Shown: in pieces, positions 710 through 21,338 of the stretch | Position numbering within the stretch: position 1 is the first letter of the stretch | Layout of the letters: each line of letters opens with the position of its first letter | DNA from: Fibrobacter sp. | Lineage (GTDB): Bacteria > Fibrobacterota > Fibrobacteria > Fibrobacterales > Fibrobacteraceae | DNA length: 27,387 bases | Direction: 5' to 3' | NCBI GenBank assembly: GCA_017520105.1 | Contig: JAFWRL010000265.1 | Coordinates: 1 to 27,387 of the forward strand | Made by a program: the position numbers and the translations under genes | Notes under the pieces: model-generated | The model's database searches: none | Told to the model about the DNA's origin: nothing | Seen by the model: the letters and a program-made list of their open reading frames with translations, nothing else

Positions 710-2878
710 TTAAAATTTCATTTCGGAAATACCTTTTATGTCGCCGTTTGCGTCAAACGAGACGTCCATGTAGAATACTCCTTCCGCGCTACTGATGTAC
801 AACGGCTTTACGGTGTTCGTCCAGGCGGTCTGCTTTTCGAATTCGACATCGATATGGTCCCCGTTCAAAACGACAGAAACGGGCATGACGGCGTCCTTGT
901 TGTTCAACAGTCCAAACGAAAAATACGGGTTCAGTCCATCCAGAATGCGCGGGAAATGGAACGCCATGTTCTTCGAGCCCATCACGGAACCCAGAAGTCC
1001 CTTTCGGTCCTTCATTTCGGCAGAAGTCGCCGAACGTACGAAATCCGCAAATCGCTTTCCGTTCCAGTTTTTGTCCATGTAGAAGAAATCCTTATTCTCG
1101 AAACTCTTGCGGTTCATGCGCGAGCCAATCTTGTCCAGAATATTCGTCCGCTTGACCTTGTCCTCATCGACCCAAATTATAAGGCTATCCGTCATGATGA
1201 CGGCCCTTACCGAAACGATATCCGAAACGCTGTTCTTCTTCTTGCCGTAAATTTCATAGTCCAGCTGCAACTTTCCAAAATCGGCGACGGAATGCGGCTC
1301 GATGTTGTTGACGGTCGTCTCCATCTTTTTCACCTGGTACTCGTCCTTGTACATATCGGTCAGGTGCAGGCACAGGAACAGGCGCACGTTCGAAAGTTTC
1401 CTGTCCGAACGGTTCTCGACCTTCACGGCTAACTTGTCCGAAAAAGAAAGCGTCGGGTTGTACGCTTGCAAGTCCAGGAACGAATGCTCCTCGAAAATCA
1501 TGTTCAAAAGCGTCGGCATGTACCGTTCCACATACTTCATGTCCGCAATCAGGTAATCATAGACATTCTGGTTCCCGCGGCGGAAAAAGTGGCGGAAAAT
1601 TTCTTCTTTGGCCTTCGCGAAATCACCTTTCTTGTAGGCAATGATGGCCTTCTGGAAATTGGGCGAGAAGAATCCGAAGCCTTCCATCATCGACTTGTAC
1701 ATCGTCTGTACAAAATGGCCTTCCACCGATTTCATCAGGTAGTTCCTGTAATTGTACGAATTGTACATATCCAAAAGTTCTTCGGAACCCCGTGGATACT
1801 CGACCGAAGACTGGTCAAACATGTTCTTCGCTTGCGTCTCGTCGCCCAACAGCATGTGGCAAGCCCCCAACAGCACAAGTGCAGGCGCCGACTTCTCGGG
1901 ATAATCACGAACAAAATTTCCGAGCAACTGTTTCGCTTCTTCAAGACCGCCTTGAAGTTCCGAGTTCACCTCGCCCAGCTGGGCGCGCCGCACAAGGCAG
2001 AACGATTTCAGCAAGATAGACTCCCGGTCGTGAGGGTACTCCGAAAGTACTTGCGACAACACGACTAGCGCCCCATCGACATCGCCATTGCTTATCGAGA
2101 TGTATGCCTTGTCCCTCATGAGGCAAAGGCGGTTCCACTTGGCCATGTAGCTCACATAAAGCCTGATGTATTCTTCCAGATACGCGAGGTAGGCGTCCTG
2201 ATGTTTTTCGAGAGCTAGGCGCGCTTCTTTCTCGATTTTTTCGTTCTTCTGCAGGTTCTTGAAAAAATCCGTACCCACCAAAACACCCTTCGTCACCAAG
2301 TTCGAAACGGCAATGACATCCAGGCCGCCAGAAAATGCCGCCCGGATTCCTTCTGCAATAGGCGAATTCACTGAAAGCAGGGTCTCGTTCCCGGCCACAG
2401 CATCCCAGAGGTTGCGCTTTTCAGCTTCGTTCAAGTCTTCTTCGGCACGGCGCAAGGTCTTGTAATACGGAATGAGCTTTTTCTTCGCACGGATGACTTC
2501 GGGAGGGATGCCGCGATAATCCTGCACGGCCAAGAACTGGAGGTATTCCTGAATGTTGTGGCTTTTTTCGTAGCCTGCATCCAGGATATGGAACAGCCTG
2601 ATCGTTTTTTCCAAATCAAACGGAGACTTATCGCCGGAAGAATCGCCGGGCTGCTCGACCGGGGCCTCAACCGAATCGGGAATCGACTCGGAACCACTAA
2701 CGTCGGCAGAAGTCGCGATATCGCTATCGCCCGAGGCTTCGTCGAGGACTTTCACGACGGCATCAATTTCTTGCTGGACTTTCTTGTCCTTCGCATTGTC
2801 GGACATTATCCACCACACGACAACCGCCCCAATAGCAAGGACGGCCAAAACAATGCCCACTATTTTCGTTTTGCTCAT
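710..2878 (-). CDS. Membrane-anchored TPR-containing protein of unknown function
   Basis: A 722-residue protein that I do not recognise as a named family. Residues about 5-25 (IVGIVLAVLAIGAVVVWWIM) form one membrane helix after a short MSKTK head, so the bulk is probably periplasmic. A low-complexity Asp/Ser/Glu/Pro linker follows (about 45-85), then a mostly alpha-helical region. Tetratricopeptide-like helix pairs are visible at roughly 260-420, for example GDVDGALVVLSQVLSEYPHD and GDETQAKNMFDQSSVEYPRG. From about residue 480 the sequence turns beta-rich (LSFSDKLAVKVENRSDRKLS), as in an immunoglobulin-like or carboxypeptidase-regulatory-like fold. The ATG at 2878 has a weak AGAGAG 5 nt upstream. 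It lies 86 nt downstream of the nuclease-family gene on the same strand and could share its transcript. A scaffold or secretion/cell-envelope role is only a guess. Confidence 0.72.
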   Translation of the reverse strand: MSKTKIVGIVLAVLAIGAVVVWWIMSDNAKDKKVQQEIDAVVKVLDEASGDSDIATSADVSGSESIPDSVEAPVEQPGDSSGDKSPFDLEKTIRLFHILDAGYEKSHNIQEYLQFLAVQDYRGIPPEVIRAKKKLIPYYKTLRRAEEDLNEAEKRNLWDAVAGNETLLSVNSPIAEGIRAAFSGGLDVIAVSNLVTKGVLVGTDFFKNLQKNEKIEKEARLALEKHQDAYLAYLEEYIRLYVSYMAKWNRLCLMRDKAYISISNGDVDGALVVLSQVLSEYPHDRESILLKSFCLVRRAQLGEVNSELQGGLEEAKQLLGNFVRDYPEKSAPALVLLGACHMLLGDETQAKNMFDQSSVEYPRGSEELLDMYNSYNYRNYLMKSVEGHFVQTMYKSMMEGFGFFSPNFQKAIIAYKKGDFAKAKEEIFRHFFRRGNQNVYDYLIADMKYVERYMPTLLNMIFEEHSFLDLQAYNPTLSFSDKLAVKVENRSDRKLSNVRLFLCLHLTDMYKDEYQVKKMETTVNNIEPHSVADFGKLQLDYEIYGKKKNSVSDIVSVRAVIMTDSLIIWVDEDKVKRTNILDKIGSRMNRKSFENKDFFYMDKNWNGKRFADFVRSATSAEMKDRKGLLGSVMGSKNMAFHFPRILDGLNPYFSFGLLNNKDAVMPVSVVLNGDHIDVEFEKQTAWTNTVKPLYISSAEGVFYMDVSFDANGDIKGISEMKF

Positions 2879-2964: not shown

Positions 2965-3939
2965 TTATTTGATGGAAAGAGCCGTTGCCACACCTTCTGC
3001 AGAAACACCTATTGAACGCAGGTATTCCGCGATTTTCTTGTCGCGGGCTGCGTTTTCAACTTCGTTCTTCTCGCGTTCCTTTTCAACGCCATTCGCTTCA
3101 CCCTTGAGATAGGTTTCCGCCATGATGGCTTCATATACGTGCTTCTCGTCGAACATGTATTCCTCCATGGATTTCAAGAGTTCAGGTTTAGCGTTGCTCA
3201 CACGCAAGCGGTCCAGGGCGTTCAAAAAGAGCGGATCTTCGGTTTCGGGAACGCCGAGCGGGCCTTCGCACAGGAGCTGAAGCCAGAAATCTTCATGGCT
3301 GTTCACGCCCTTGTGGAGCTTCGCGAACTTGAGCAGGTCAACAATAATATATTTATTTTTCGAGAACAGCGGAAGGGGCTCAACTGCATTTTTGTCACGC
3401 CGGTTTACGTCGTATTTGCTGTAAAGCATCCAGGTATCCTTGTAAGTATTCCTCGGTTCCAGAATCGAAAAGCCGCAGAGCCAGATGGAGACCGTTTCAG
3501 GGACTTCGTAGTAATGGACCTTCTTCTCGTATTCCGTAAAAGCGACAAACTGTTCCGACTTGTTGTAATCGTGCTTTCCGCGAAGGGTCTGGTAAGCGTT
3601 GTATAGCCGCATGCGGTCTCCGAAAAACGGATTTTGCCTGTTTTGCAATTCAATGTCCATAAAGCGGTTGTCTCGCGTTTCAACCCAAACATCAAGCCGC
3701 ATGGGTTCGTCGCCGGGCATGAACACATCGATGTACTTTTCGAATTCGTAAGTGAGATCGATGATTTCATGGTCGTGGTCGAGTTCAAGTATGCTGTTCA
3801 GCATGTCACGGATGGTGTCCTTGTCGTCCATCAGGGCCCGGAATGTCGCCGGATAAGTCGGAATCAGGTATTCCACGCCGTTGGCGTCCCTGACAATGTA
3901 AGGTTTTGTAGTTTCGGCTTTCTTTTCGTTTTCAGACAT
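2965..3939 (-). CDS. PD-(D/E)XK nuclease family protein (Rpn/PDDEXK_2 type)
   Basis: A 324-residue member of the group annotated as 'Rpn family recombination-promoting nuclease / PD-(D/E)XK nuclease family transposase'. The nuclease core is MRLDVWVETRDNRF followed by MDIELQNRQ. D83, E97 and Q99 match the D...(D/E)xQ active site of this group. The rest (NPFFGDRMRLYNAYQ; LPLFSKNKYIIVDLLKF) follows the family pattern, and the C-terminal 40 residues are Lys/Glu-rich and helical. I chose the ATG at 3939 because an AAAGGAAA ribosome binding site precedes it by about 6 nt. The ORF is open 29 codons further upstream, but that extension looks untranslated. No terminal inverted repeats or target duplications are visible, so 'transposase' is probably a misnomer here. 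Known members such as E. coli RpnA are Ca2+-stimulated DNA endonucleases. Confidence 0.82.
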   Translation of the reverse strand: MSENEKKAETTKPYIVRDANGVEYLIPTYPATFRALMDDKDTIRDMLNSILELDHDHEIIDLTYEFEKYIDVFMPGDEPMRLDVWVETRDNRFMDIELQNRQNPFFGDRMRLYNAYQTLRGKHDYNKSEQFVAFTEYEKKVHYYEVPETVSIWLCGFSILEPRNTYKDTWMLYSKYDVNRRDKNAVEPLPLFSKNKYIIVDLLKFAKLHKGVNSHEDFWLQLLCEGPLGVPETEDPLFLNALDRLRVSNAKPELLKSMEEYMFDEKHVYEAIMAETYLKGEANGVEKEREKNEVENAARDKKIAEYLRSIGVSAEGVATALSIK

Positions 3940-4105
3940 AGAAATTTCCTTTTTTTGAAGAGTCTCTATATCTTTAACACGCTTTTTTGGTGTTCCTTGT
4001 CCGGAAAAATTTTGTAAAAAACACATACTACACGTCTGTTCAGCACCTTACTCCTTACTATTATATTATATCCTCAAAAATGCCCCGTCATTCGGTGGCG
4101 GCGTT

Positions 4106-9144: not shown

Positions 9145-9693
9145 TCACTTATTTTTCTTTTGGTTCACCACGTATTTCAAAACGCCTTCCTCGCCCACTT
9201 TTGCAAGAGCAAGTTTCAAGATTTCGGCGGCGGCCATCGTATCGTCCAGCGCCCGATGGTGATTGAAGTCCGGTAGTCCCAGAGATTCCGTGAGCTTATG
9301 CAAACTGTAGCTTGGCTGCCCCGGGAAAACACGCCTCGAAAGTTTGACCGTACAAAGCCTTGGCGGATTGAACTTGATACAGCAGCGTTTCAATTCTGTC
9401 GTCATGAACTTGCAATCGAACTGCACGTTGTGCGCAACAAAAATGCGGTCATCCAAAAGTTCCGCCACATGTTCCGCAATCGATGCAAACTGCGGTTGCC
9501 CCTGGACCATCTCGTCGCTGATTCCCGTCAGTTCACGGACAAACGGCGTAATCGGATGCCCCGGATCGACCAGTGCATGGTATGTATCGACAATATCGGA
9601 ACCGTCCATCAAGACGATTCCGACCTCCATAATCCGGTTTAAATCTTTATGACCGCCAGTCGTTTCTAAATCGACTACTGCAAATTTCAGCAA
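9145..9693 (-). CDS. DEDDh 3'-5' exonuclease, DnaQ/PolC epsilon-like
   Basis: A 182-residue RNase T/DnaQ-superfamily exonuclease. All motifs are present: Exo I VVDLETTG (D8, E10), Exo II AHNVQFDCKF, and Exo IIIe HHRALDDTMAAAEIL with the histidine and aspartate of the DEDDh active site. LVDPGHPITPFVRELTGI is the typical motif of the polymerase III epsilon/PolC-type group. The stand-alone length without a clamp-binding or polymerase region makes the role (proofreading subunit, repair or RNA trimming) undecidable. The start is TTG at 9693. The upstream gene's TAA (9702-9700) lies 6 nt before it, with AAGG just before that stop, which suggests translational coupling. Confidence 0.88.
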   Translation of the reverse strand: MLKFAVVDLETTGGHKDLNRIMEVGIVLMDGSDIVDTYHALVDPGHPITPFVRELTGISDEMVQGQPQFASIAEHVAELLDDRIFVAHNVQFDCKFMTTELKRCCIKFNPPRLCTVKLSRRVFPGQPSYSLHKLTESLGLPDFNHHRALDDTMAAAEILKLALAKVGEEGVLKYVVNQKKNK

Positions 9694-10415: not shown

Positions 10416-11387
10416 ATGTCTGGAATTATTCGATTTGCGCCAAGCCCCACGGGATATCTCCATGAAGGCCATCTGCTTTCTGCGCTTTACGTATGGGCCG
10501 CCGCTGCAAAATGGGATTTGAAGGTCCATCTGCGAATCGAAGACCACGACCAGAGCAGGGCGCGCCCCGCCTATATCGAGGGAATCCGCGAAGACCTCGC
10601 GTGGCTCGGATTCCGGTACGATTCCGAAAGCATCCAAAGCGGGCGTTCCGCCATTTACGAAGCGGCTCTCCAAAAGCTCAAAGCGAAATCGCTGGTATAT
10701 CCCTGCTATTGCAGTCGAAAGCAGCTCCAAGACGAGAACCCCAAGAGCGAGACTGGAGAAGTCATTTATCAGGGGAAATGCTATTATAGACGAGAGACGA
10801 AAGACGAGAGACGAAAGTCGAGAGAATTTTCAGCATCCGATATAGCAAACGCACCTCGTCATTTTGAACAAAGTGAAGGATCCAGTGAAGTTCAATGTTG
10901 CAGTTCCGCGCCTCATAGTCTTCGCTTCGTCGTTTCAGACAAAGTAATTCATTGGCACGATTTGCGGCTCGGAGATTTCCACGAGAATCCGAAACTCCAG
11001 TGCGGCGACTTCCCTATCCGCGACCGCGAAGGCCAATGGACATACCAGTTCGCCGTCTGCGTTGACGACATCGACGAAAACATCACGCACATTGTACGCG
11101 GCGAGGACATCCGCAGCTCCACGGCCCGCCAAATCGCTTTGATGGAAGCGCTCGGACGCACCGAACGCCCTATTTACCTACACCACCCGCTCATCGTCGA
11201 TGAAAACAACAAGAAGCTATCCAAGCGAGAACTCGCCCACAGCCTAAGACAGGATAAAGAAGCCGGCATCACCCCCGAAATGCTATTCGGGCGAGTCTGC
11301 CACAAGGCCCACCTCACCGAAAGCAATGCGCCCATTTCGCTACAAGAAGCCACGGCTCTAGTCGCCCACACGCTCCCGTCGCTTTAG
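10416..11387 (+). CDS. gluQ: Glutamyl-Q tRNA(Asp) synthetase, with an in-frame repeat insertion
   Basis: Class I synthetase paralogue that activates glutamate and attaches it to queuosine at position 34 of tRNA(Asp). IIRFAPSPTGYLHEGHLLSA (4-23) holds the HIGH-like signature. The zinc site reads C97-x-C99, then Y118-x3-C122, as in E. coli GluQRS. YLHHPLIVDENNKKLSKREL (254-273) contains the KMSKS-like loop. GEDIRSSTARQIALMEALGR is typical. There is no anticodon-binding domain, as expected for GluQ rather than GltX. It is 323 residues against about 290-300. The excess is residues ~125-167, between the zinc site and SLRFVVSDKVIHWHDLRLG, encoded by dispersed repeat DNA (see 10789-10886). The frame is intact, so the protein is probably made. 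No Shine-Dalgarno is visible before ATG 10416. Confidence 0.9.
   Translation: MSGIIRFAPSPTGYLHEGHLLSALYVWAAAAKWDLKVHLRIEDHDQSRARPAYIEGIREDLAWLGFRYDSESIQSGRSAIYEAALQKLKAKSLVYPCYCSRKQLQDENPKSETGEVIYQGKCYYRRETKDERRKSREFSASDIANAPRHFEQSEGSSEVQCCSSAPHSLRFVVSDKVIHWHDLRLGDFHENPKLQCGDFPIRDREGQWTYQFAVCVDDIDENITHIVRGEDIRSSTARQIALMEALGRTERPIYLHHPLIVDENNKKLSKRELAHSLRQDKEAGITPEMLFGRVCHKAHLTESNAPISLQEATALVAHTLPSL
10789..10886. repeat. Composite dispersed repeat inside gluQ
   Basis: Five heptads (GACGAGA, GACGAAA, GACGAGA, GACGAAA, GTCGAGA; 10789-10823) are followed at 10858-10886 by GTCATTTTGAACAAAGTG then AAGGATCCAGT. The latter part is the reverse complement of the core of the 62-bp repeats at 15701, 16341 and 16412, with only a few differences. 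The whole is read through in frame by gluQ. Confidence 0.82.
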
Positions 11388-11459: not shown

Positions 11460-14400
11460 ATGGCCTCCACGTCAATGTCAGCTACAATCGGGAAAATTCG
11501 CTTAGAAGCAGCCTCCTTCGATAACAAGGACCGTCTGCTCTGTTTTTCGCAAAAGAATAAATTCCAGTCACCACTTTTTTTTGACTACGGGGATCAGTTT
11601 TTTGAGAAATGGCAAAACGAGAACAAGCCTCGAGCGCTAGCCTCGTTTTTCCCGGTATCCGCAAAGTACAACGAAGAAATGCAAAAGGCGGATCTTGAAA
11701 ATTTCCGCCAAGTTCTAAAGTCAAAGGACGAAGATTTCTGCAACCAAGATTTGTACATGGCGACGGGCTTTATCAAGTGGGGCGAGAAATCACTGGCACC
11801 CGCGCTGCTCATTCCGCTGAACTACGACTACGAACACGATACGGTAGCCATCTCTACCCGTGCACCCGTAGAAAACATTGCTCTTTCGACACTTGACAGG
11901 AACATCCATTTCCCCGTAGCGACGGACTTTTACAAGAACGGGCATTTCGATATCAAGAAGTTTATCGAAGTCCTCGAGAAAAAAATTGCAGAAAAGCCCG
12001 AATGGAAGTTCACACGTAATGGATGCTGTATCACGTTCTACAGTACCAACAAGCTCCTCCTCAAAAAGGATTTAGCAAGCGAAAAATGGGCAACAGCCAA
12101 GGTCGCAAACAACGTCTTTTTCAACGCCACCATCGGAAACGACGGATTCTTGCCGCAGCCATCCCTTTTTGAAGTCAACACGTACGACCACGTCTTTAAT
12201 CCGGCGGACCACTACTTCCCATACGTAATGGATTCGCAAACAAACAAAGCGGCCATCGACGCGCTGAACGAGCAAGTCCCCGTCTATGCAATACAAACGC
12301 TTCCGGGTTCCGAAAAGGCGAAACTCGGCGTGAATATTGTCGCAGACCTTATCCAGCAGAAAAAGAAAGTTTGCGTCATCAGCCGAAGGACCATTTCCAA
12401 ACTGAATTTCGAAAACGCATGGAAGCCGCCGTTCCGCTCGTTCCAAGGCCCCGAACGGGAACCGTTACAAAAAGCACTGAACGACGTGCGCACAAAGCTT
12501 GTCTCTTACTACGACGTGGTCAACAACCCACTCAAGCCTAGCGGAATTAAGCTTACGGAACTCTTTGACGAAATGGCAAAACTCAAACCCGTCAAGACAA
12601 GGTTCCCCAACAACCTATTCAAGAATATCGAGCGCATCCGCTATCCAAAGTACAAGTCGATGCATGCCAGTCTGCAGCAGATGACTCAGCTTTTTTTCAA
12701 CGAAAATGGAATCGAAATCTACAACGCATTCCAGGGAATTAAGCTGCCCGCCATTTCTCAAGACCGGAGAAACATGATTGGCGAAGACCTGGAACACGCC
12801 AAGAGCCTTCTTGAAAAGAACAAGCCGTTCTTCGATAGCATCGTAAAATCAAATCTATATCCCTTCGGATACAGGCTCTCGGACGCACAAGAACTCATCG
12901 AAACCTTCAAGAAAAATTTCGACCCGGAATTGCCGGGCTTTGAAGAATGGAATCTCCATTCCAGCGGCTGGGTTGCCTACCAGGACAACTTAAACGAACT
13001 ACCCAATGCAGGCAACCGCTGGTCCAGTTTCCGTCGCATGGGCTCGGACCTCTACACTGAAGACGCCATTGACGAAAACATTCTCGAAGTACGAGATGAA
13101 TTTGCACGCAGCCTCGGTTCTCCGCTCCGCGGACTGTCCGACCATTACCGCAGACCCAAGCGCATTTTGCTCGCTCTCTTCAAGGAGCCGAAAAATATAT
13201 CTTCGGACGAAATGTTGCTCGATAATATAAACAAACTTATCGACATCCAGGAAAACAGGCGCAAATACAGGGATTCATCAGTCCTCGCCTTGAGGCTTTT
13301 CGGCAAAGACTGGAAATTCGAAAAGACCGACTGGAAAGAGCTTGCGAACAAAATCCAGAGCTATTACTCTTTCCGTTCAAGGAACAAGAACGACGAACAG
13401 TACGACCAACTCATCCATATCCTTGAGCAATGGCATCTTTTCAAGCCGTTTGTCAGCGAATTCGAAAACATCCAAAAGAATATCGAATTTTTGCAAAAAG
13501 TTTTGCAGTCCATAAGCAAATCGCTTGACTTGAATGATTCCTTGGATACGCAGAATGTCGATTTGTGGAGCAACATGATTGATTCCTGGTCAAAGCACTG
13601 GAAAGATCAGGACATCTACTTGCAACTTTGTGAACACATCGGCAACATCGGCGACTCTCAATGCGAAGACCTCGCCGAGTTCGTCAAGGAATCCAAGAAC
13701 GCAAACAAAGAAATTGCCACGGCGTTTGCCCGTGCTTGGACCAATTGCCAAATGCAGGCCGTCACAACAGAATGTCCCGACCTGTTCACAGCATCTTCAA
13801 AAGCACGGAGTAAACAAAGTAACCTGTACAGAGCACTACTGGACAAGTTCTCCAATTCAAACTTCCGTGCAGCACATGAGCTTGTAGAAAAGAACCCCGA
13901 TTTGCTCCAGAGCATTGCGCTATCACAATCCTACGAGCACGAATCAAGCACTTTTGACGTTACCTTGTTCCTAGACGCAGATTGTACAACAATCGCAGAA
14001 GCCATGCCAGGCACCATCCGTTCTAAAAAAATTATCCTGCTTGGCAATCCCTGCGCACCGTCACTGGAAATGCTGCCCATGGACGCCTGCAACATGGACG
14101 TGTCCCAGCAATCCGTATTTTATAAGGACAGCATGCTTTCGGCAGCGCTTCGCAAAGGCATCCCGACAAGAGTTATCGGTTTTACAACTCAGTATGCAGA
14201 TCCTTCGCTATTCCATTTTGCGAACAAGAACATTTACAACAACGAAATAGCTCAATTCCCGAATTCGTATCTGCATACAAGTTCATTGCAGACCATCAAG
14301 ATTGTCCGCAACAAAGCCAAGGCTATCGCAGAACAGGCAATACGCCATTCCATCAAGAACCCAAGCCAGACGCTCGGCATCGTTACGTTCAACCAAGCGC

Positions 14401-15554
14401 TCAGCAGTGAAATCAGGGATGAACTCAAAAAGCTTTTGGAAAGCAATCCCGATTCGTCAAAGTTCTTTACACGCGGCAATCTACAAAACAGGTTTTACAT
14501 CAAGACCGTCGAACGAGCTGTAGATTTATACCGCGATGTCATTTTTGTTTGCCCAGATATTGACGGGGCGACCGCCACTGCGGGGAACCGCAAGCTTTCT
14601 ATTTGTACAACGCTTGCAAAGCAAAAACTGAATCTATTCATATCCGAAGAAGATTCCGACAAGTTAGCAAATTCAAAGCCTGGACTTTTCTTGGATTGGG
14701 TCAACCAGCTCAAGTCTAAAGAACCCGTCAAAGCAGACGAAACCCATATCGAATCCGTATTGGACGAACAAATTCACCAGGTATTAAAAAAGGATTCTAT
14801 CCCATTCAAGGAGTTTCTCGCACAAGGCGGCATTCCAATTGGACCTGTCGTCGTAGATGCGAACAATCCCAAACGGTTCCTTGTTTTTATTGAAACGGAT
14901 TGCTCTAGTGGACTTTATAAGGAGTCTGTCGAAGACCGCGAATACATCCGTCCGAACACGCTTTCTAGATTGGGCTGGAAGATTTTGAACATGTGGCTTC
15001 CGCTATGGAACATCACCAATGCGGACGAAACAGAAAACCTCGTGACGACAATCGCGATTGAACAAAGCGTCGCACCGCCACCCCAAGAAGAAGGCGAAGC
15101 AAGCGACGATGAAGACGATTCACAGGATTTATCGCTAAGAATAGAGCCCTACATCGTAACGCACATGCCTATAGAAGGGACTCAAGACGATTTGCCGATT
15201 CTGGAACTTTCGACAGACAAACTTATCCAACAATTGAAGTTCTATGTCGATAACGAATCGCCTATCCACAGCGAGCTTCTGTTGCAGAGGGTTCTGGAAC
15301 TGCACCATATCGAGCGCGTCGGTCCGAAGATGGAAGACGTGTTGAACGAGACTATCAAGCAGGCGCTGCACGAGAAGCAATTCGTCAAGACGGGGCCGTT
15401 CTTCTACTCGCTCACGAACAAAGAAATCAAAGCCAGGGATCGCTCCAAAAGGCCGGACAACGAACGCAAAATTGCGTACGTCTCGCCCGAAGAACGCGCG
15501 CTACTGACAAAGACCGACGACTTCAGCATAAAGCAGGCCCTCGGACTATTGTAA
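11460..15554 (+). CDS. DUF4011-type SF1 helicase/nuclease homologue with lost ATPase motifs
   Basis: A 1364-residue protein matching, in order, the large bacterial family DUF4011 / SF1 helicase / MTES_1575-type nuclease / DUF3320. N-terminal landmarks are LYMATGFIKWGEKSLAPALL (98-117) and FPYVMDSQTNKAAIDALNEQ (253-272). The expected Walker A (GPPGTGKSQT) is here QTLPGSEKAKLG (279-290). Walker B/DEAD (FDEAS) is LDADCTTIAEAMPG (D839-A-D-C). The QGDERDV motif is AVDLYRDV (1020-1027) and the TRAR motif is TLAK (1051-1054). The nuclease-like part is GGIPIGPVVVDANNPKRFLV then FIETDC (1123 onward), with REYIRPNTLSRLGWKILNMW. The C-terminus (~1249-1364, ARDRSKRP, KIAYVSPEE) is DUF3320-like. The fold seems kept, but ATP hydrolysis is unlikely. 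Homologues are associated with DNA repair/defence; the role here is unknown. The gene is uninterrupted, and 237 nt of repeats follow it. Confidence 0.75.
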   Translation: MASTSMSATIGKIRLEAASFDNKDRLLCFSQKNKFQSPLFFDYGDQFFEKWQNENKPRALASFFPVSAKYNEEMQKADLENFRQVLKSKDEDFCNQDLYMATGFIKWGEKSLAPALLIPLNYDYEHDTVAISTRAPVENIALSTLDRNIHFPVATDFYKNGHFDIKKFIEVLEKKIAEKPEWKFTRNGCCITFYSTNKLLLKKDLASEKWATAKVANNVFFNATIGNDGFLPQPSLFEVNTYDHVFNPADHYFPYVMDSQTNKAAIDALNEQVPVYAIQTLPGSEKAKLGVNIVADLIQQKKKVCVISRRTISKLNFENAWKPPFRSFQGPEREPLQKALNDVRTKLVSYYDVVNNPLKPSGIKLTELFDEMAKLKPVKTRFPNNLFKNIERIRYPKYKSMHASLQQMTQLFFNENGIEIYNAFQGIKLPAISQDRRNMIGEDLEHAKSLLEKNKPFFDSIVKSNLYPFGYRLSDAQELIETFKKNFDPELPGFEEWNLHSSGWVAYQDNLNELPNAGNRWSSFRRMGSDLYTEDAIDENILEVRDEFARSLGSPLRGLSDHYRRPKRILLALFKEPKNISSDEMLLDNINKLIDIQENRRKYRDSSVLALRLFGKDWKFEKTDWKELANKIQSYYSFRSRNKNDEQYDQLIHILEQWHLFKPFVSEFENIQKNIEFLQKVLQSISKSLDLNDSLDTQNVDLWSNMIDSWSKHWKDQDIYLQLCEHIGNIGDSQCEDLAEFVKESKNANKEIATAFARAWTNCQMQAVTTECPDLFTASSKARSKQSNLYRALLDKFSNSNFRAAHELVEKNPDLLQSIALSQSYEHESSTFDVTLFLDADCTTIAEAMPGTIRSKKIILLGNPCAPSLEMLPMDACNMDVSQQSVFYKDSMLSAALRKGIPTRVIGFTTQYADPSLFHFANKNIYNNEIAQFPNSYLHTSSLQTIKIVRNKAKAIAEQAIRHSIKNPSQTLGIVTFNQALSSEIRDELKKLLESNPDSSKFFTRGNLQNRFYIKTVERAVDLYRDVIFVCPDIDGATATAGNRKLSICTTLAKQKLNLFISEEDSDKLANSKPGLFLDWVNQLKSKEPVKADETHIESVLDEQIHQVLKKDSIPFKEFLAQGGIPIGPVVVDANNPKRFLVFIETDCSSGLYKESVEDREYIRPNTLSRLGWKILNMWLPLWNITNADETENLVTTIAIEQSVAPPPQEEGEASDDEDDSQDLSLRIEPYIVTHMPIEGTQDDLPILELSTDKLIQQLKFYVDNESPIHSELLLQRVLELHHIERVGPKMEDVLNETIKQALHEKQFVKTGPFFYSLTNKEIKARDRSKRPDNERKIAYVSPEERALLTKTDDFSIKQALGLL

Positions 15555-15558
15555 ATTA

Positions 15559-15594
15559 GACGAGAGATTGTCATGCCGGCCTCAGTGCCGGCAT
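15559..15594. repeat. GACGAGA unit plus palindromic TGTCATGCC element
   Basis: A single GACGAGA unit in the context ATTAGACGAGAG (as at 24631) precedes a perfect hairpin ATGCCGGC-CTCAGT-GCCGGCAT (15573-15594). The same design with a different stem, ATGCCTGC-CTCCGA-GCAGGCAT, is at 26428-26449. Confidence 0.75.
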
Positions 15595-16541: not shown

Positions 16542-19500
16542 TTACTTGCTATTTTCGATATTCATGTTGCCAATAACCTTCGTGTTATGGCGGACACCCC
16601 ACATCTCGGTCTTGTCGTTCTTGTTCTTCTTACCGAAGTTAGCAAGCTGGACGTAAGTCTTCAACTTGGCAACGTAGGCTCCAGAACCCACGAGGCGATC
16701 CTTGTTGGACTTCATGTTCCATACGATGAAGAAGTTCTTCGGCTTATCAACGCAGTTCTTGCCTTCGAAGAAGTACTTGCCATTTTCTTTCTTGTTCATG
16801 GCGTCATCGCAGTAGATGCGGCCCTTCTTGGTCACAACATGAGAACCGAGGTTCGTGAAGAACTGGAGTTCGTAGTTGAAGAAGACAGAAGCATAGTTGT
16901 TACCGATTGCAGCCTGCGTCGTCGTATCCTGAACAATCAAGGCGCTCATATCGCTCTTGACGAACCAGCCATGCGGCACAAAGCCGTAATTGGCAAGATT
17001 CGGATCAACAGAGGCATCCTTATTGATCATAGCCTTCTTGAAGTCGCTTTCATCCTTATAGGCATCGAAGGTGAATGCTTCGATATCCGGAAGCTTAGCG
17101 TATTCAGACGGTGTGAGCGGAATACTTCCGATAGCATCCGGCATAAGTCTTACAGCGTAATCTTTCACGGCACCCGTAATCAAAGCCCACGGAGACGGAA
17201 CACGGACGCTCGGGTCCGAATCGTAGGCCGGAGCAATGTTCCAATTGTATTCATCAGCAGGACGGAGCCCTTCGGCACCCGGCATAGAATCTGTAACAGC
17301 CTTATAGTTAGATTGGTCCATGACAAGACCAGTGCCATTGATACCCCTAAAGTGGATGTAGTCACCCGCCTGCGGGAATTCAGAAGCCTGGCTGTAAAGG
17401 ATGGTCTGGTTAGAATCGAGCTGTCTTCCATAAGACACACCCGAAGCAATCGGAATGTACTCTACAAAATGATGTTCCTTAGCGGCATTAATGTAGAAGG
17501 AGAACACGTTATCTCCCTGCTGAGCACCTTCACTCGTCTTCTCGACGTTTTCAGAGAACTTAATCTTCAGCTGAGCGGTCGAACCCTTGGCGGTGTCGGT
17601 AACGGCCCTTGCAGAGATGATAATCGGGGCAATACGGTCGAGAAGGACGCCCGAGTATTCCGAAGTCACAACCACTCCACGAGCCGAGTATGTAGCCCAA
17701 GACTTAACCTTAGCCGAGCCATCAGTATAAGTCTTCACATCCTTGGAAAGTTTCTTACCACCAAGAGTAATTCTCGGGATACAGGTGGAATCCGTCTTAG
17801 CACCCTTAGCAGTACCGCAAGCAGCACCCTTCACGACTTCATCATGTTCAAAGAGCACGGAATCCTTGTCACTTTCCCAGAACACAGCAACCTTATCCGG
17901 GAGAGAGTCCTTATGGAATTCACGATGGTAGTAAACGACCACGGAGTCGCCAATACCGTCGAGGTATTCCTTTTCGGGACTGAAGTACGGAGGCGGAACA
18001 TTTATAGTAGCCTCGGACGGTGCGCCATGGACGTCAAAGATGTCTGCAAACAGCGGATACGGAACCGGCGGTTCAGTGAACTGCATATTGTCATAAGTTG
18101 CCTGCATGAGTGCTGGGCTCGGGCCAACAACATGAAGCGTAGCGGTGCCCTTGCAAGCAGGACCTTCGCCCACTCTGCAATATTCCTTGGAGGACTGAAT
18201 CGTAACCTTGGCGCGACCATTCACGACTTCACCGCCAGCAATGATTCTTACCCCATCAGAGGTCTTGGAACCCTGCGTAAGCTTGAAGTTGCAATCCGTG
18301 CACGGAGAATCGTCACCATTAAGGGCAACCACATAGAATTCATAGGCAGAACCCTTCATGCGGACCGGATCGGAATCCTTGTCTCCCGTCACAACCTTGA
18401 ACGTAGTTTCGGAATCCACGAACACGAGACGCGGCACGAAGAACTTGATTTCGGCCTTGCGAGCGCTGCCGTTCACATTGACATGAACCGTTTCGACAGC
18501 TTTGGTATCCATTTCATCGAACGGAATCGTCACGTAAATGGTATCGATACCACCATCACCGACAGTGCGCTTCGAAGTCGGGCTGAACGGCGTAAGCTTG
18601 CCACCCTTCATGGCAAAGAACTGGGCCTTGGGGTTGTCCACCTGCAAGCTGTATTCAGAACCAGGAGCCATTTGCATTTCAAGAGGATCTTTACAATCCG
18701 CAGCGTTACTGCACGGATCAATCATCGGAGCGACATAGAGCGGAATCATCTGGTCGATGTCCGGAGTGCCATCTTCCTTCAACTGGGAAGCCATGGCCTG
18801 AGACTTGAACAAATACGGGAGGCTGAGGTTGCCGTTTTCATCAACGGTAACGGCTTCGCGGTTAGCGACTGCGAGAGAACCCTTGATGTTGATTTCGATG
18901 GGCTTCTGGTCAGTACCAATCTTGATGATAAGGAAGTACTTACCGCTCGGCAATGCAGCCTTGAGCTTATCCTCATTGATAATCGGAGTGGACGGTTCAG
19001 AAACGTCAATACCACCATCATACGGTTTCGGGTTTGCAGCGAAATCGTCGGCACTATACTTTGTCTTGGTCGGATCCTGTCCGCTCTTGTCCGTCGAGAA
19101 GATATAGGTAATCGGTTCGGTAATGTCCTTACCGCACTTGAGTTCTTCTCCGCCACCGCCCAAAGCGGCACCGCAAGAACCACCACCGGACTTCTTGTAG
19201 CAGATTTTGAAGATGTTATCACCTTTTTCAATGAAGGCCTTTGTATCCTGCTTACCTTCAGGAATAATACCGGTCGTCTGTTCGATGAACATGTTCGTCT
19301 TGATGTGGACGTTACTCATCGTCGTACGACGGTCGCAGAAGTAGATATCGATGTCATAGGACTTGCCGACTTCGGCATTCGGCATGAACTTATCCAAATC
19401 GACATAGCCCGGAGCGGCAAGGTGAGTACCACCAAGGTCCACAGCAAGCTTGTTATCAATAAAGACCCAAATATCGTCGTCACCACGGAAGCTGAACTTC

Positions 19501-21338
19501 AAGCCGTTTCTGAAACGGAAGTTAGCATGAGATTCAAAGCAGAAATGCTGGTTACGGCCGCCCTTTGTAAGAGCCTTACTGTCATCATCTCCAGAGGTCC
19601 AACGATAAGTAGAAGCGGTTGCTGTACCCGGATTTTCTGTACCTCCAGTATATCTCGGCCATCCTTCTGGAGAGGGCAGACCTTCGCAGCCCCAGGCCCA
19701 ACCATCACCGACCCAGGTAACACCGAGCTTTCTCGAAATCTGGGTAGCAATAGCGTTAGTACCAATTGTAAATTCGGAACCGGCAGCAAACAAACCATCG
19801 CAGTCAACGCCGCCATCCCAGCCAGGGCCATTACACATCAAATCGCTCTTCGGAACGCCTTCTTTTTCGTCAATCGTACGAAGGCCGAGCGGAGTCGTTG
19901 ACGGTTCCTGGTCACCGCAGAAATAGACCGGACCTTCAGCCTTGCGCTTGGTTTCAGCAGCAGGCAGACGTTCAGACATCATCTTGTCTGCATCAGGCTC
20001 TTTTTCGGCCGGATAGAAACCACCCGGAACAGTAGCACCGGGACTCTGGTAGTAATCCGATTCAAATTCAAACTTGCCATCGGCCGCCTGTTCAAAAGGC
20101 ATGTTGAAGCAATACTGTTCGTTGACACCCTGCGTAAAGTTAAACATAGCGGCAAAAGCTTCATCAGCCTGAGCACCGAAGCACTTCTTACCCGTAGAAG
20201 TCAACTTCATCTTCTTGGTCTTCGGGTCAAGCGTAGATTCCACCATTCCTTTGGTCACGCCAATACAGGGCATTTCAGCCGTAGCCGAAGAAAGCACCTG
20301 GAACTTAGCACTTGGCGAATAGCAAGCGTTAGCGTGAGCCTGCTCAGGAGTCTGCCCAGCATTCCAGTCCGGGTTGCAAGTAAATGCACCATGCAAGCTA
20401 GCATCGGTATCGTAAATTATAGCAGCCAAGTCATAACCACACTTGCCCGTCACATCAGGGCGTTTTACGTACCAGCCCTGGTTTGAGCTGGGGAGTTTCT
20501 GAGATTCTTCGGCATCAGCCACGAAATAAAGCGCTTTGTTATAGCCCGGTTCAGTCGAATAAATTTCAAACAACCCTTCCAAAGCAATGGGCGTGGCAGC
20601 ACCTTCTTCCCAGGCGCCGTTCATACCGATAGCGTCTTCCATCTTGGGATCATCGTTTCTGTGAATGACAACACTTTCCGGGAATTTTTCATCAATATAA
20701 CGCCTGTAGTACCAACCGCAGTTTGCACCATCATTGTACAACGCAACTTCTTTTGTCTTGCCACTGGCATCGGTTTCACTGATGTAAGGTTCAGCACTCT
20801 TCCAAGTCGTATTGTTAGGCAAGAAGATGTAGAAGTCATAAACCTTCGGTTCTTCGTAGGTGATATAAGTCTTGCCAGACTTCTTGATATCCGGATGGTC
20901 CTGAATCCAGACTTCGCCACCATCGACCCAAGATTTATTACCCGTTTCAAACGTACTGCAAGAGAAACTTGCGGTACGGGTGTCATTGGTCCTTATGCCA
21001 AACTGTGTAGGCATTACGCACTTCTGTTGGCAGGTGTTGTCAGCAACGCTGTTAATAAAGAAACGGTCATCGTTATTCGTACCCACAGCCTTCGCATCGC
21101 TGAAATCAATGGTAGCCCATCCATTTTCGTCAGGAACGCCCATCGCATGTGCAGAACCACCAATCACGACGTAAGCTCTGGTCCAACTATCTGGAACTTT
21201 GAAGTGAATCTTGGGCGAGCACACCGTATTATCCTGACGACGTAAATCAGCCCATGCTCCCTGTGCCCCAATCAGGAGCAGAACCAGCATAATCGCAAAA
21301 CTTTGCAAAGCTCTATTACTTTTTTTCATATTTTTCAT
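16542..21338 (-). CDS. Large secreted fibro-slime domain protein
   Basis: A 1598-residue exported protein. The signal peptide MKNMKKSNRALQSFAIM then LVLLLIGAQGAWA ends before DLRR. The N-terminal 500 residues are Cys- and Trp-containing. The fibro-slime domain lies at about 590-680: QHFCFESHANFRFRNGLKFS, FRGDDDIWVFIDNKLAVDLG, GTHLAAPGYVDLD, then YDIDIYFCDRRTTMSNVHIK. This is a PA14-like beta domain typical of Fibrobacter surface proteins, several reported among cellulose-adhesion proteins. Later residues include repeated beta-strand segments like invasin/Ig-like domains (about 900-1300, for example AKVTIQSSKEYC). The C-terminus ends MWGVRHNTKVIGN, possibly a genus-specific tail. A role in adhesion to plant cell walls is inferred, not shown. 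Alternative start: the second Met, 3 codons in. A terminator follows the stop. Confidence 0.88.
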   Translation of the reverse strand: MKNMKKSNRALQSFAIMLVLLLIGAQGAWADLRRQDNTVCSPKIHFKVPDSWTRAYVVIGGSAHAMGVPDENGWATIDFSDAKAVGTNNDDRFFINSVADNTCQQKCVMPTQFGIRTNDTRTASFSCSTFETGNKSWVDGGEVWIQDHPDIKKSGKTYITYEEPKVYDFYIFLPNNTTWKSAEPYISETDASGKTKEVALYNDGANCGWYYRRYIDEKFPESVVIHRNDDPKMEDAIGMNGAWEEGAATPIALEGLFEIYSTEPGYNKALYFVADAEESQKLPSSNQGWYVKRPDVTGKCGYDLAAIIYDTDASLHGAFTCNPDWNAGQTPEQAHANACYSPSAKFQVLSSATAEMPCIGVTKGMVESTLDPKTKKMKLTSTGKKCFGAQADEAFAAMFNFTQGVNEQYCFNMPFEQAADGKFEFESDYYQSPGATVPGGFYPAEKEPDADKMMSERLPAAETKRKAEGPVYFCGDQEPSTTPLGLRTIDEKEGVPKSDLMCNGPGWDGGVDCDGLFAAGSEFTIGTNAIATQISRKLGVTWVGDGWAWGCEGLPSPEGWPRYTGGTENPGTATASTYRWTSGDDDSKALTKGGRNQHFCFESHANFRFRNGLKFSFRGDDDIWVFIDNKLAVDLGGTHLAAPGYVDLDKFMPNAEVGKSYDIDIYFCDRRTTMSNVHIKTNMFIEQTTGIIPEGKQDTKAFIEKGDNIFKICYKKSGGGSCGAALGGGGEELKCGKDITEPITYIFSTDKSGQDPTKTKYSADDFAANPKPYDGGIDVSEPSTPIINEDKLKAALPSGKYFLIIKIGTDQKPIEINIKGSLAVANREAVTVDENGNLSLPYLFKSQAMASQLKEDGTPDIDQMIPLYVAPMIDPCSNAADCKDPLEMQMAPGSEYSLQVDNPKAQFFAMKGGKLTPFSPTSKRTVGDGGIDTIYVTIPFDEMDTKAVETVHVNVNGSARKAEIKFFVPRLVFVDSETTFKVVTGDKDSDPVRMKGSAYEFYVVALNGDDSPCTDCNFKLTQGSKTSDGVRIIAGGEVVNGRAKVTIQSSKEYCRVGEGPACKGTATLHVVGPSPALMQATYDNMQFTEPPVPYPLFADIFDVHGAPSEATINVPPPYFSPEKEYLDGIGDSVVVYYHREFHKDSLPDKVAVFWESDKDSVLFEHDEVVKGAACGTAKGAKTDSTCIPRITLGGKKLSKDVKTYTDGSAKVKSWATYSARGVVVTSEYSGVLLDRIAPIIISARAVTDTAKGSTAQLKIKFSENVEKTSEGAQQGDNVFSFYINAAKEHHFVEYIPIASGVSYGRQLDSNQTILYSQASEFPQAGDYIHFRGINGTGLVMDQSNYKAVTDSMPGAEGLRPADEYNWNIAPAYDSDPSVRVPSPWALITGAVKDYAVRLMPDAIGSIPLTPSEYAKLPDIEAFTFDAYKDESDFKKAMINKDASVDPNLANYGFVPHGWFVKSDMSALIVQDTTTQAAIGNNYASVFFNYELQFFTNLGSHVVTKKGRIYCDDAMNKKENGKYFFEGKNCVDKPKNFFIVWNMKSNKDRLVGSGAYVAKLKTYVQLANFGKKNKNDKTEMWGVRHNTKVIGNMNIENSK

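Follow-up and report, generated by a model that had tools for sequence, protein, structure and literature searches.

The stretch of DNA analysed here (the window) comprises 27,387 nucleotides of contig JAFWRL010000265.1 from Fibrobacter sp. (assembly GCA_017520105.1), and it carries on its forward strand an intact open reading frame (ORF) which starts with ATG and codes for a protein of 1,364 residues, P0001, with no internal stops, as an earlier note on this DNA had described. The domain order of P0001 is DUF4011, a split superfamily 1 (SF1) helicase, a Vsr-like (MTES_1575) domain and DUF3320 (Table 1; the segment borders were set in this analysis). The same plan had been put forward in the earlier note, and it is borne out by matches to Pfam, NCBIfam and PADLOC profiles, by a family hidden Markov model (HMM) whose positions 91-796 and 831-1348 align with P0187, the nearest canonical protein (441 bits), and by a predicted fold that is intact (predicted local distance difference test score, pLDDT, 88.9 over residues 1-1198). 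In Pfam, DUF3320 scores above its cut-off (26.3 bits against 25); MTES_1575 (residues 1103-1198, 31.5 bits against 38.2), a partial DUF4011 (residues 67-125, 15.9 bits against 22.2) and AAA_12 (14.6 bits against 27) score below theirs, with MTES_1575 passing the cut-off in the relatives P0055, P0060 and P0063 and staying under it in P0064. The C-terminal domain was assigned on the basis of VIA-align and Pfam, and a Foldseek search with the C-terminal model returned no match at an E-value of 0.001 or better; no solved structure related by sequence to P0001 was found.

We scored the catalytic residues in 124 of 127 family sequences (three exact duplicates were removed and the shortened L029 and L039 included) against 20 canonical DUF4011 proteins, mostly of one subtype, with a motif alignment of 28 family and 20 canonical sequences; a separate alignment, A1, took in 50 of 60 family sequences. 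The scored ATPase residues (GxxxxGK[ST], the DE pair, the motif IV arginine and the motif VI arginine) are kept in 20/20 canonical proteins. In P0001, Walker A aligns as TLPGSEKA with GPPGTGKS, a register on account of which P282, G283 and Lys286 are counted as kept; the glycine at 285 is replaced by glutamate and the serine at 287 by alanine. Across the family, P282 is kept in 123/124, G283 in 124/124 and Lys286 in 107/124, the second glycine is found in register in 0/124, Ser or Thr follows the lysine position in nine, and no member of the 124 has a GxxxxGK[ST] P-loop anywhere in its sequence. The 17 replacements of Lys286 are W (10), G, A, L, R or N, and the deep-lineage loci are evenly divided, with the lysine retained in seven of 14 and replaced in the other seven. 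The deepest lineage (L053 and L127, and also P0184-P0186, which were added later, lie outside the 124 scored sequences and carry the same motif losses) displays PGTD[GN]GKT, with the GKT two residues off register and the first glycine missing; in L053 and L127 this shifted GKT is possibly a remnant or a displaced loop. The Walker B region aligns without gaps, setting DEAS against L-D-A-D, such that the aspartate corresponds to Leu838 (123/124) and the glutamate to Asp839 (124/124); a match of P0186 to a rough Walker B pattern sits at residue 221, away from Walker B. The motif III glutamine is deleted in 28/28 aligned family sequences, the motif IV arginine is left in a single one of the 124, and Tyr912, a further conserved substitution at a motif position, is found in 112/124. 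Both Q and E of motif V are lost throughout, with R1025-D1026 retained in 124/124, and the arginine of the motif VI signature VSRAR aligns with Leu1052 (TLAK), which is leucine in 115/124. The earlier note had called the ATPase motifs erased: the canonical residues are indeed lost in all 124 sequences, although the word is slightly too strong in view of Lys286 and of the shifted GKT in the deepest lineage. It had also rightly recognized the motifs as changed, although the registers need correction to TLPGSEKA, LDAD and TLAK. No alternative valid P-loop, a counter-case that the note itself had raised, turned up in any scored sequence, PGTD[GN]GKT of the deepest lineage being a near miss.

The catalytic residues of the nuclease centre are lost as well. 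The position of the metal-binding aspartate (RID) is Asp in 0/123 family sequences and Gly in 110/123 (Gly1128 in P0001), and the glycine of the nuclease DG is kept in 0/123, Cys1148 standing there in 104/123; both residues are present in 20/20 canonical proteins. D1147, kept in 123/123, is a remnant shared with the canonical proteins. E1145 is likewise found in 123/123, and the canonical residue is Leu in 17/20 and Glu in 2/20; when the position was located by a rough pattern in 197 canonical proteins, Leu was found in 120, Glu in 29 and other residues in nine, with 39 unlocated. Because the canonical position is mostly Leu, E1145 is not a simply retained residue. Of the IExD core that had been described as partly kept, D1147 is what the family shares with the canonical proteins. 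A nuclease-only defence factor, one of the roles offered earlier, is very unlikely with the metal-binding aspartate missing in 123/123. As the motif losses are common to all scored members, hydrolysis and cleavage were most likely lost before the sampled family arose, whereas it is less certain that nucleotide binding has gone too.

A protein search, one of three that each scored ~8,000 candidates, recovered 59 full-length relatives of 1,350-1,378 residues with 40-95% identity, after which come canonical DUF4011 helicase-nucleases at 23-25% identity. Scanning reference genomes yielded 55 loci, every one under a Fibrobacter, Fibrobacteraceae or Fibrobacterales title. The gene was found in 93/111 Fibrobacteraceae genomes: 88 have a single unbroken full-length frame, three are only partly matched (G087, G140 and G062, the last of these on two contigs), and two have broken copies (an internal TAG in G076 and a split frame in G077). 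Across the Fibrobacterota, 94/167 genomes match, the only addition beyond the Fibrobacteraceae being an 81-residue match in G039. Canonical DUF4011 proteins (frames of 1,537-1,986 residues) were detected, within what searches with Pfam DUF4011 and P0001 can pick up, in three of the 167 genomes; in these (G080, G106 and G108) the sporadic canonical proteins L128, L129 and L130 have intact motifs and each occurs alongside the dead form. A candidate for the active paralogue that the earlier note suggested seeking elsewhere in the genome was thus found in these three genomes. A profile search with the deepest members, limited to 7,994 candidates, produced three family matches (P0184-P0186, of which two look like near-copies of L053 and L127) and 76 non-family matches, all of which carry GxxxxGK[ST] and 13 of which failed one of two other rough patterns; no degenerate form from another phylum was among these 76. 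In a tree of 28 family and 20 canonical rows, obtained by a quick method with no bootstrap and with long-branch and composition warnings, all 28 sampled family members lie on one side of a branch with a Shimodaira-Hasegawa-like approximate likelihood ratio test (SH-aLRT) value of 100. A mobile carrier was considered and rejected: no relative was confirmed on viral contigs, one phage record matched weakly, and the 324 matching plasmid records were each below 60% identity, with none covering 80% of the query, four of the eight listed among them being annotated as DUF3320/DUF4011 proteins. A literature search, with most subscription journals beyond its reach, found no paper on this Fibrobacter protein.

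The ratio of nonsynonymous to synonymous substitution rates (dN/dS), calculated by the Nei-Gojobori (NG86) method on 11 hand-picked, non-overlapping close pairs out of 75 with >80% identity (60 of the 75 were listed), is 0.080 when pooled and 0.03-0.10 in single pairs. By domain it is 0.069 in the N-terminal region, 0.055 in lobe 1, 0.095 in the helical insert, 0.084 in lobe 2, 0.069 in the nuclease-like domain and 0.048 in the C-terminal part. The best conserved 15-residue windows (611-625, 1258-1272, 1335-1349 and 1193-1207) all lie outside the ATPase motifs, and the insert has 47 columns that are at least 90% conserved, 12 of which match a canonical consensus of at least 70%. The motif losses are common to relatives down to ~24-27% identity to P0001; this sharing, together with purifying selection, points to losses in excess of chance. 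Selection for a non-catalytic role, as the earlier note had suggested, is supported by the dN/dS values of pairs and domains and by conserved substitutions at the motif positions, and the neutral decay that it had set against this is contradicted by the pooled value, on which we rejected a gene in decay.

Table 1. Features of the P0001 gene and its immediate surroundings, with positions in the window
Feature	Position	Strand	Basis or remark
gluQRS-like gene (tRNA glutamyl-Q(34) synthetase type)	10416..11387	+	NCBIfam 236.9 bits, below the 276.7 cut-off; 72 bp upstream
Gene for the 1,364-aa putative pseudo-helicase/pseudo-nuclease P0001	11460..15554	+	59 full-length relatives; in 93/111 Fibrobacteraceae genomes
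N-terminal DUF4011-type region, residues 1-245	11460..12194	+	Sub-threshold partial Pfam DUF4011; alignment to canonical proteins
RecA-like lobe 1, residues 246-330	12195..12449	+	Model strand 275-280 and helix 286-299; alignment
Degenerate Walker A, residues 280-287, TLPGSEKA vs GPPGTGKS	12297..12320	+	GK[ST] in register in 0/124, out of register in 2
Long helical insert separating the RecA lobes, residues 331-810	12450..13889	+	Structure model, conservation; holds the family's most conserved 15-residue window, 611-625
RecA-like lobe 2, residues 811-1065	13890..14654	+	Alignment, structure model
Degenerate Walker B, residues 838-842, LDADC vs DEASQ	13971..13985	+	DE in 0/124, whichever register within 837-842 is taken
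Degenerate motif V, residues 1021-1026, VDLYRD vs QGDERD	14520..14537	+	R1025-D1026 kept
Degenerate motif VI, residues 1044-1054, RKLSICTTLAK vs RRLNVAVSRAR	14589..14621	+	Arg at 1052 in 0/124
Vsr-like (MTES_1575) pseudo-nuclease domain, residues 1096-1198	14745..15053	+	
Gly1128 codon, at the place of the metal-binding nuclease Asp	14841..14843	+	Asp in 0/123
E1145-T-D1147	14892..14900	+	D1147 common to canonical proteins; E1145 family-invariant, with Leu as the main canonical residue
DUF3320 winged-helix and conserved C-terminal tail, residues 1229-1364	15144..15551	+	Pfam DUF3320, winged-helix fold matches, lowest domain dN/dS (0.048)
Terminator-like hairpin after the gene	15573..15594	+	Consensus match only; tail CGGTTATTCT

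We then examined the gene neighborhood. In 65/67 loci the gene is preceded on its own strand by a gluQRS-like gene, at a gap of 15-85 bp in 61 of these, L004 and L123 being the only two loci without it. No terminator-like site was found on the + strand between gluQRS and the gene, and co-transcription of the two appears likely. Terminator-like sites number 17 in the region against 8.9 expected from shuffles, promoter-like sites in the scan show no excess over shuffles, and neither RNA families nor tRNAs were found in the window. The surroundings are those of a Fibrobacter-type chromosome. The upstream neighbors are genes for a glycosyltransferase, topoisomerase III, a GH3 protein and a DnaQ-like exonuclease, followed by the gluQRS-like gene; downstream come a SPOR-domain gene (found in 56/67 loci, some of which are short), a giant PA14 gene, an FHA-GGDEF gene and a MATE transporter gene. 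No defence island was seen around the gene, the named neighbors being of housekeeping type, and a PADLOC scan of five ORFs matched P0001 and the topB neighbor (over its first ~460 residues) only. The DnaQ-like RNase_T exonuclease (9145-9693, - strand, 128.8 bits) shows synteny near gluQRS in many loci. Seven kb away, a PDDEXK_2/Rpn-type transposase-like nuclease (2965-4026, - strand) separates the TPR and glycosyltransferase genes; it was detected in locus L001 alone of 55, many of which end before it. In L003, L004, L007 and L008 the best downstream MATE match, ~20-22 kb in, is on the strand opposite to the arrangement in the window. Within the PA14 gene (1,598 residues, 16542-21338, - strand) runs an antisense ATG ORF of 1,104 residues (16587-19901, + strand) with no Pfam match, which is probably a by-product of codon bias.

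The best-scoring named families for P0001 are the DUF4011 anti-phage helicase-nucleases ProA (NF058533 in NCBIfam, 238.3 bits) and PDC-S37 (PDLC05009 in PADLOC, 387.4 bits), each matched in three stretches, best over residues 826-1347, and the domain order is the same. The nearest canonical relative, P0187, reaches 1902 bits with PDC-S37. The ProA score of P0001 is far under the cut-off of 1500 bits, which the canonical P0061 (2288.8) and L128 (1998.8) pass and P0187, P0188 and L129 (1240.7-1414.1) fail; the ProA type of 1,950 residues has a long N-terminal part that is missing in P0001 and also in these last three canonical proteins. Unlike ProA and PDC-S37, P0001 is without the ATPase and nuclease catalytic residues, and whereas they are sporadic the dead form is found across most of a single family. 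P0001 is nearest to ProA/PDC-S37 in its architecture and its best score, and because the catalytic features fail we would not file it as a working system of that kind. Hhe (NF042953/PDLC02194), another DUF4011 anti-phage family, shares the C-terminal helicase-nuclease half, but the match is much weaker (72.5 bits in NCBIfam, 54.2 in PADLOC) and the catalytic motifs of P0001 are again lost. Vsr-like domains of the RAP/FASTK type, which have a role with RNA, match weakly and belong to a protein that is different overall; as canonical L128 and L129 give similarly weak RAP matches, this likeness is a superfamily resemblance.

RecC and AddB are helicase-nuclease-shaped subunits that have lost helicase and/or nuclease activity and steer DNA for active partners. 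Most Fibrobacteraceae genomes, however, have RecB and RecC homologs of their own at other loci: RecB homologs (E-value 1e-40 or better) occur in 101/111 and RecC homologs (1e-30 or better) in 100/111, none of them over the NCBIfam cut-offs. In the other ten genomes RecB matches are weaker or short only, most being taken as UvrD-type; RecC is represented by partial matches in two more genomes and by none in nine. No RecB/RecD-type gene was found among the named neighbors of the P0001 gene. We rejected the candidate that P0001 is the missing RecC/AddB of the Fibrobacteraceae, RecB/RecC homologs being present with or without its gene. In Pseudomonas aeruginosa, a DUF4011 gene is reported to be a core gene at the flank of a defence hotspot (PMC10250203). 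A study of the pseudohelicase PriA of Deinococcus radiodurans describes decayed Walker A and B motifs and no ATPase or helicase activity, with binding to DNA and to DnaB (PMC4504706). P0001 is similar in its helicase ancestry, its decayed motifs I and II and its intact gene under selection, but PriA belongs to another helicase family and has a known role in replication restart. To our knowledge, Deinococcus PriA has no nuclease domain, whereas P0001 has two dead catalytic domains.

Based on the relationship, architecture, motif loss, predicted fold, purifying selection and fixed locus that the computations establish, we propose, with a probability of about 0.9, that the P0001 family is a dual pseudoenzyme under selection. 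It joins an SF1 (Upf1/senataxin-like) helicase to a Vsr-like nuclease and a winged helix and would have descended from a ProA/PDC-S37-type DUF4011 helicase-nuclease, with both the ATPase and the nuclease chemistry lost no later than in the shared ancestor of the gene-bearing Fibrobacteraceae and the gene kept afterwards as a largely core, vertically inherited one. We posit that the protein most likely holds nucleic acid by way of the helicase groove, a Vsr-like domain unable to cut and the winged helix, neither pumping nor cutting it, and that it would present what it has bound to another protein, or restrain that protein, perhaps through the conserved patches on the insert and the C-terminal tail. 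Such a mode would resemble that of Deinococcus PriA or RecC, in what would be a housekeeping rather than a defence role. For this non-catalytic, nucleic-acid-binding scaffold, as worded here, we regard the chances as roughly even, and the structural DNA-binding subunit of the earlier note seems the best of the roles that it offered. We know of no bacterial precedent for a housekeeping dual pseudoenzyme beyond the RecC-like analogy. More tentatively still, and at somewhat less than even odds, the ancestor of the gene-bearing Fibrobacteraceae may have captured, on a single occasion, a defence helicase-nuclease that was then disarmed in its two catalytic centres and domesticated as a core factor in nucleic-acid metabolism specific to this clade, for example as a scaffold in replication, repair, or tRNA or RNA handling that is co-expressed with gluQRS.

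Several observations weigh against the scaffold proposal. The gene is missing from 18/111 Fibrobacteraceae genomes; unless gaps in the assemblies account for this, it is not essential throughout the family. Five gene-less genomes (G152, G047, G056, G050 and G046) gave a gluQRS-like match at 36-49% identity, and the fetched stretch contains no remains of the gene; three others (G068, G085 and G148) have no match of gluQRS size, giving ~490-residue frames (taken as gltX) or nothing, and because that match is missing as well the absence there may reflect assembly gaps. The link to gluQRS does not clearly hint at a function and is lacking in two of 67 loci, and the Pfam and NCBIfam scores of P0001 are largely sub-threshold. 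The fifth-best conserved window (1013-1027) spans motif V, and the insert has the highest dN/dS of all domains, so that it is not the most constrained part overall; its mean entropy is 2.00 bits against 1.60 in lobe 1 and 1.59 in the C-terminal part. In view of the conserved windows, the insert columns and these entropy values, the family has constraints of its own, distributed patchwise rather than shifted wholesale into the insert. Finally, nucleotide binding may persist, Lys286 being kept in most members and the deepest lineage having its shifted GKT.

This last point leads to the rival that the P-G-x-x-K loop binds nucleotide without hydrolysis as a switch altering the grip on nucleic acid or on a partner. 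The near-invariance of P282 and G283, the lysine in 107/124 with Ser/Thr next to it in nine, the universal R1025-D1026, the shifted GKT of L053 and L127, the strand-loop-helix geometry of the P-loop kept in the structure model and the low dN/dS of lobe 1 (0.055) are all consistent with it, but the lysine is replaced in 17/124, including half of the deep-lineage loci, the in-register second glycine is lost in all 124 and the Walker B aspartate position is Leu in 123/124, and we consider such a switch a minority possibility. A non-catalytic defence factor, which would contribute to anti-phage immunity by sensing or by scaffolding other nucleases, is suggested by ProA and PDC-S37 as the closest named families; yet the locus is fixed amid housekeeping-type genes, the gene runs through most of one family rather than being sporadic, no relative on viral contigs was confirmed, none of the phage (one) and plasmid (324) records covers 80% of the query, and a dN/dS of 0.08 is judged low for an arms-race gene, which together render this role unlikely. 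An inhibitor or decoy restraining an active DUF4011 helicase-nuclease or RecBCD would have a target at hand in the RecB (101/111) and RecC (100/111) homologs; however, canonical DUF4011 proteins occur in just three of 167 genomes against 93 with the dead form, and RecB and RecC homologs are also present in gene-less genomes such as G050, G056 and G152, so that this role, which the earlier note had raised, is improbable as a general one. It is more improbable again that D839/D841 and E1145/D1147 serve a different chemistry in a moved or new active site: D839 is invariant (124/124), residue 841 is Asp/Glu in 123/124, and E1145 (mostly Leu in canonical proteins) and D1147 are present in 123/123, but the motif IV arginine remains in 1/124, the motif VI arginine in 0/124 and the nuclease metal aspartate in none, and the conserved acids may be merely structural. 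A neutral pseudogene in decay, for which the internal TAG and the split frame among 93 genomes might speak, is scarcely credible against a dN/dS of 0.080 pooled and 0.048-0.095 in each domain, and against unbroken frames in 88/93 genomes with three more merely partial matches.

As far as we know, bacterial proteins in which helicase and nuclease are both dead, family-wide, under strong selection are rare. Given that catalysis is lost, whatever the dead form still does must rest on binding, and it thereby offers a naturally occurring separation-of-function form of DUF4011 proteins, which are themselves poorly understood. Defence-finding tools may flag this gene as a PDC-S37 relative. If the domestication proposal is true, it would tie enzymes of phage defence to the core biology of the cell in a gut lineage that degrades cellulose and is of ecological importance. 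The conservation of this dead helicase-nuclease points to an undiscovered non-catalytic job in the gut-bacterium family Fibrobacteraceae.

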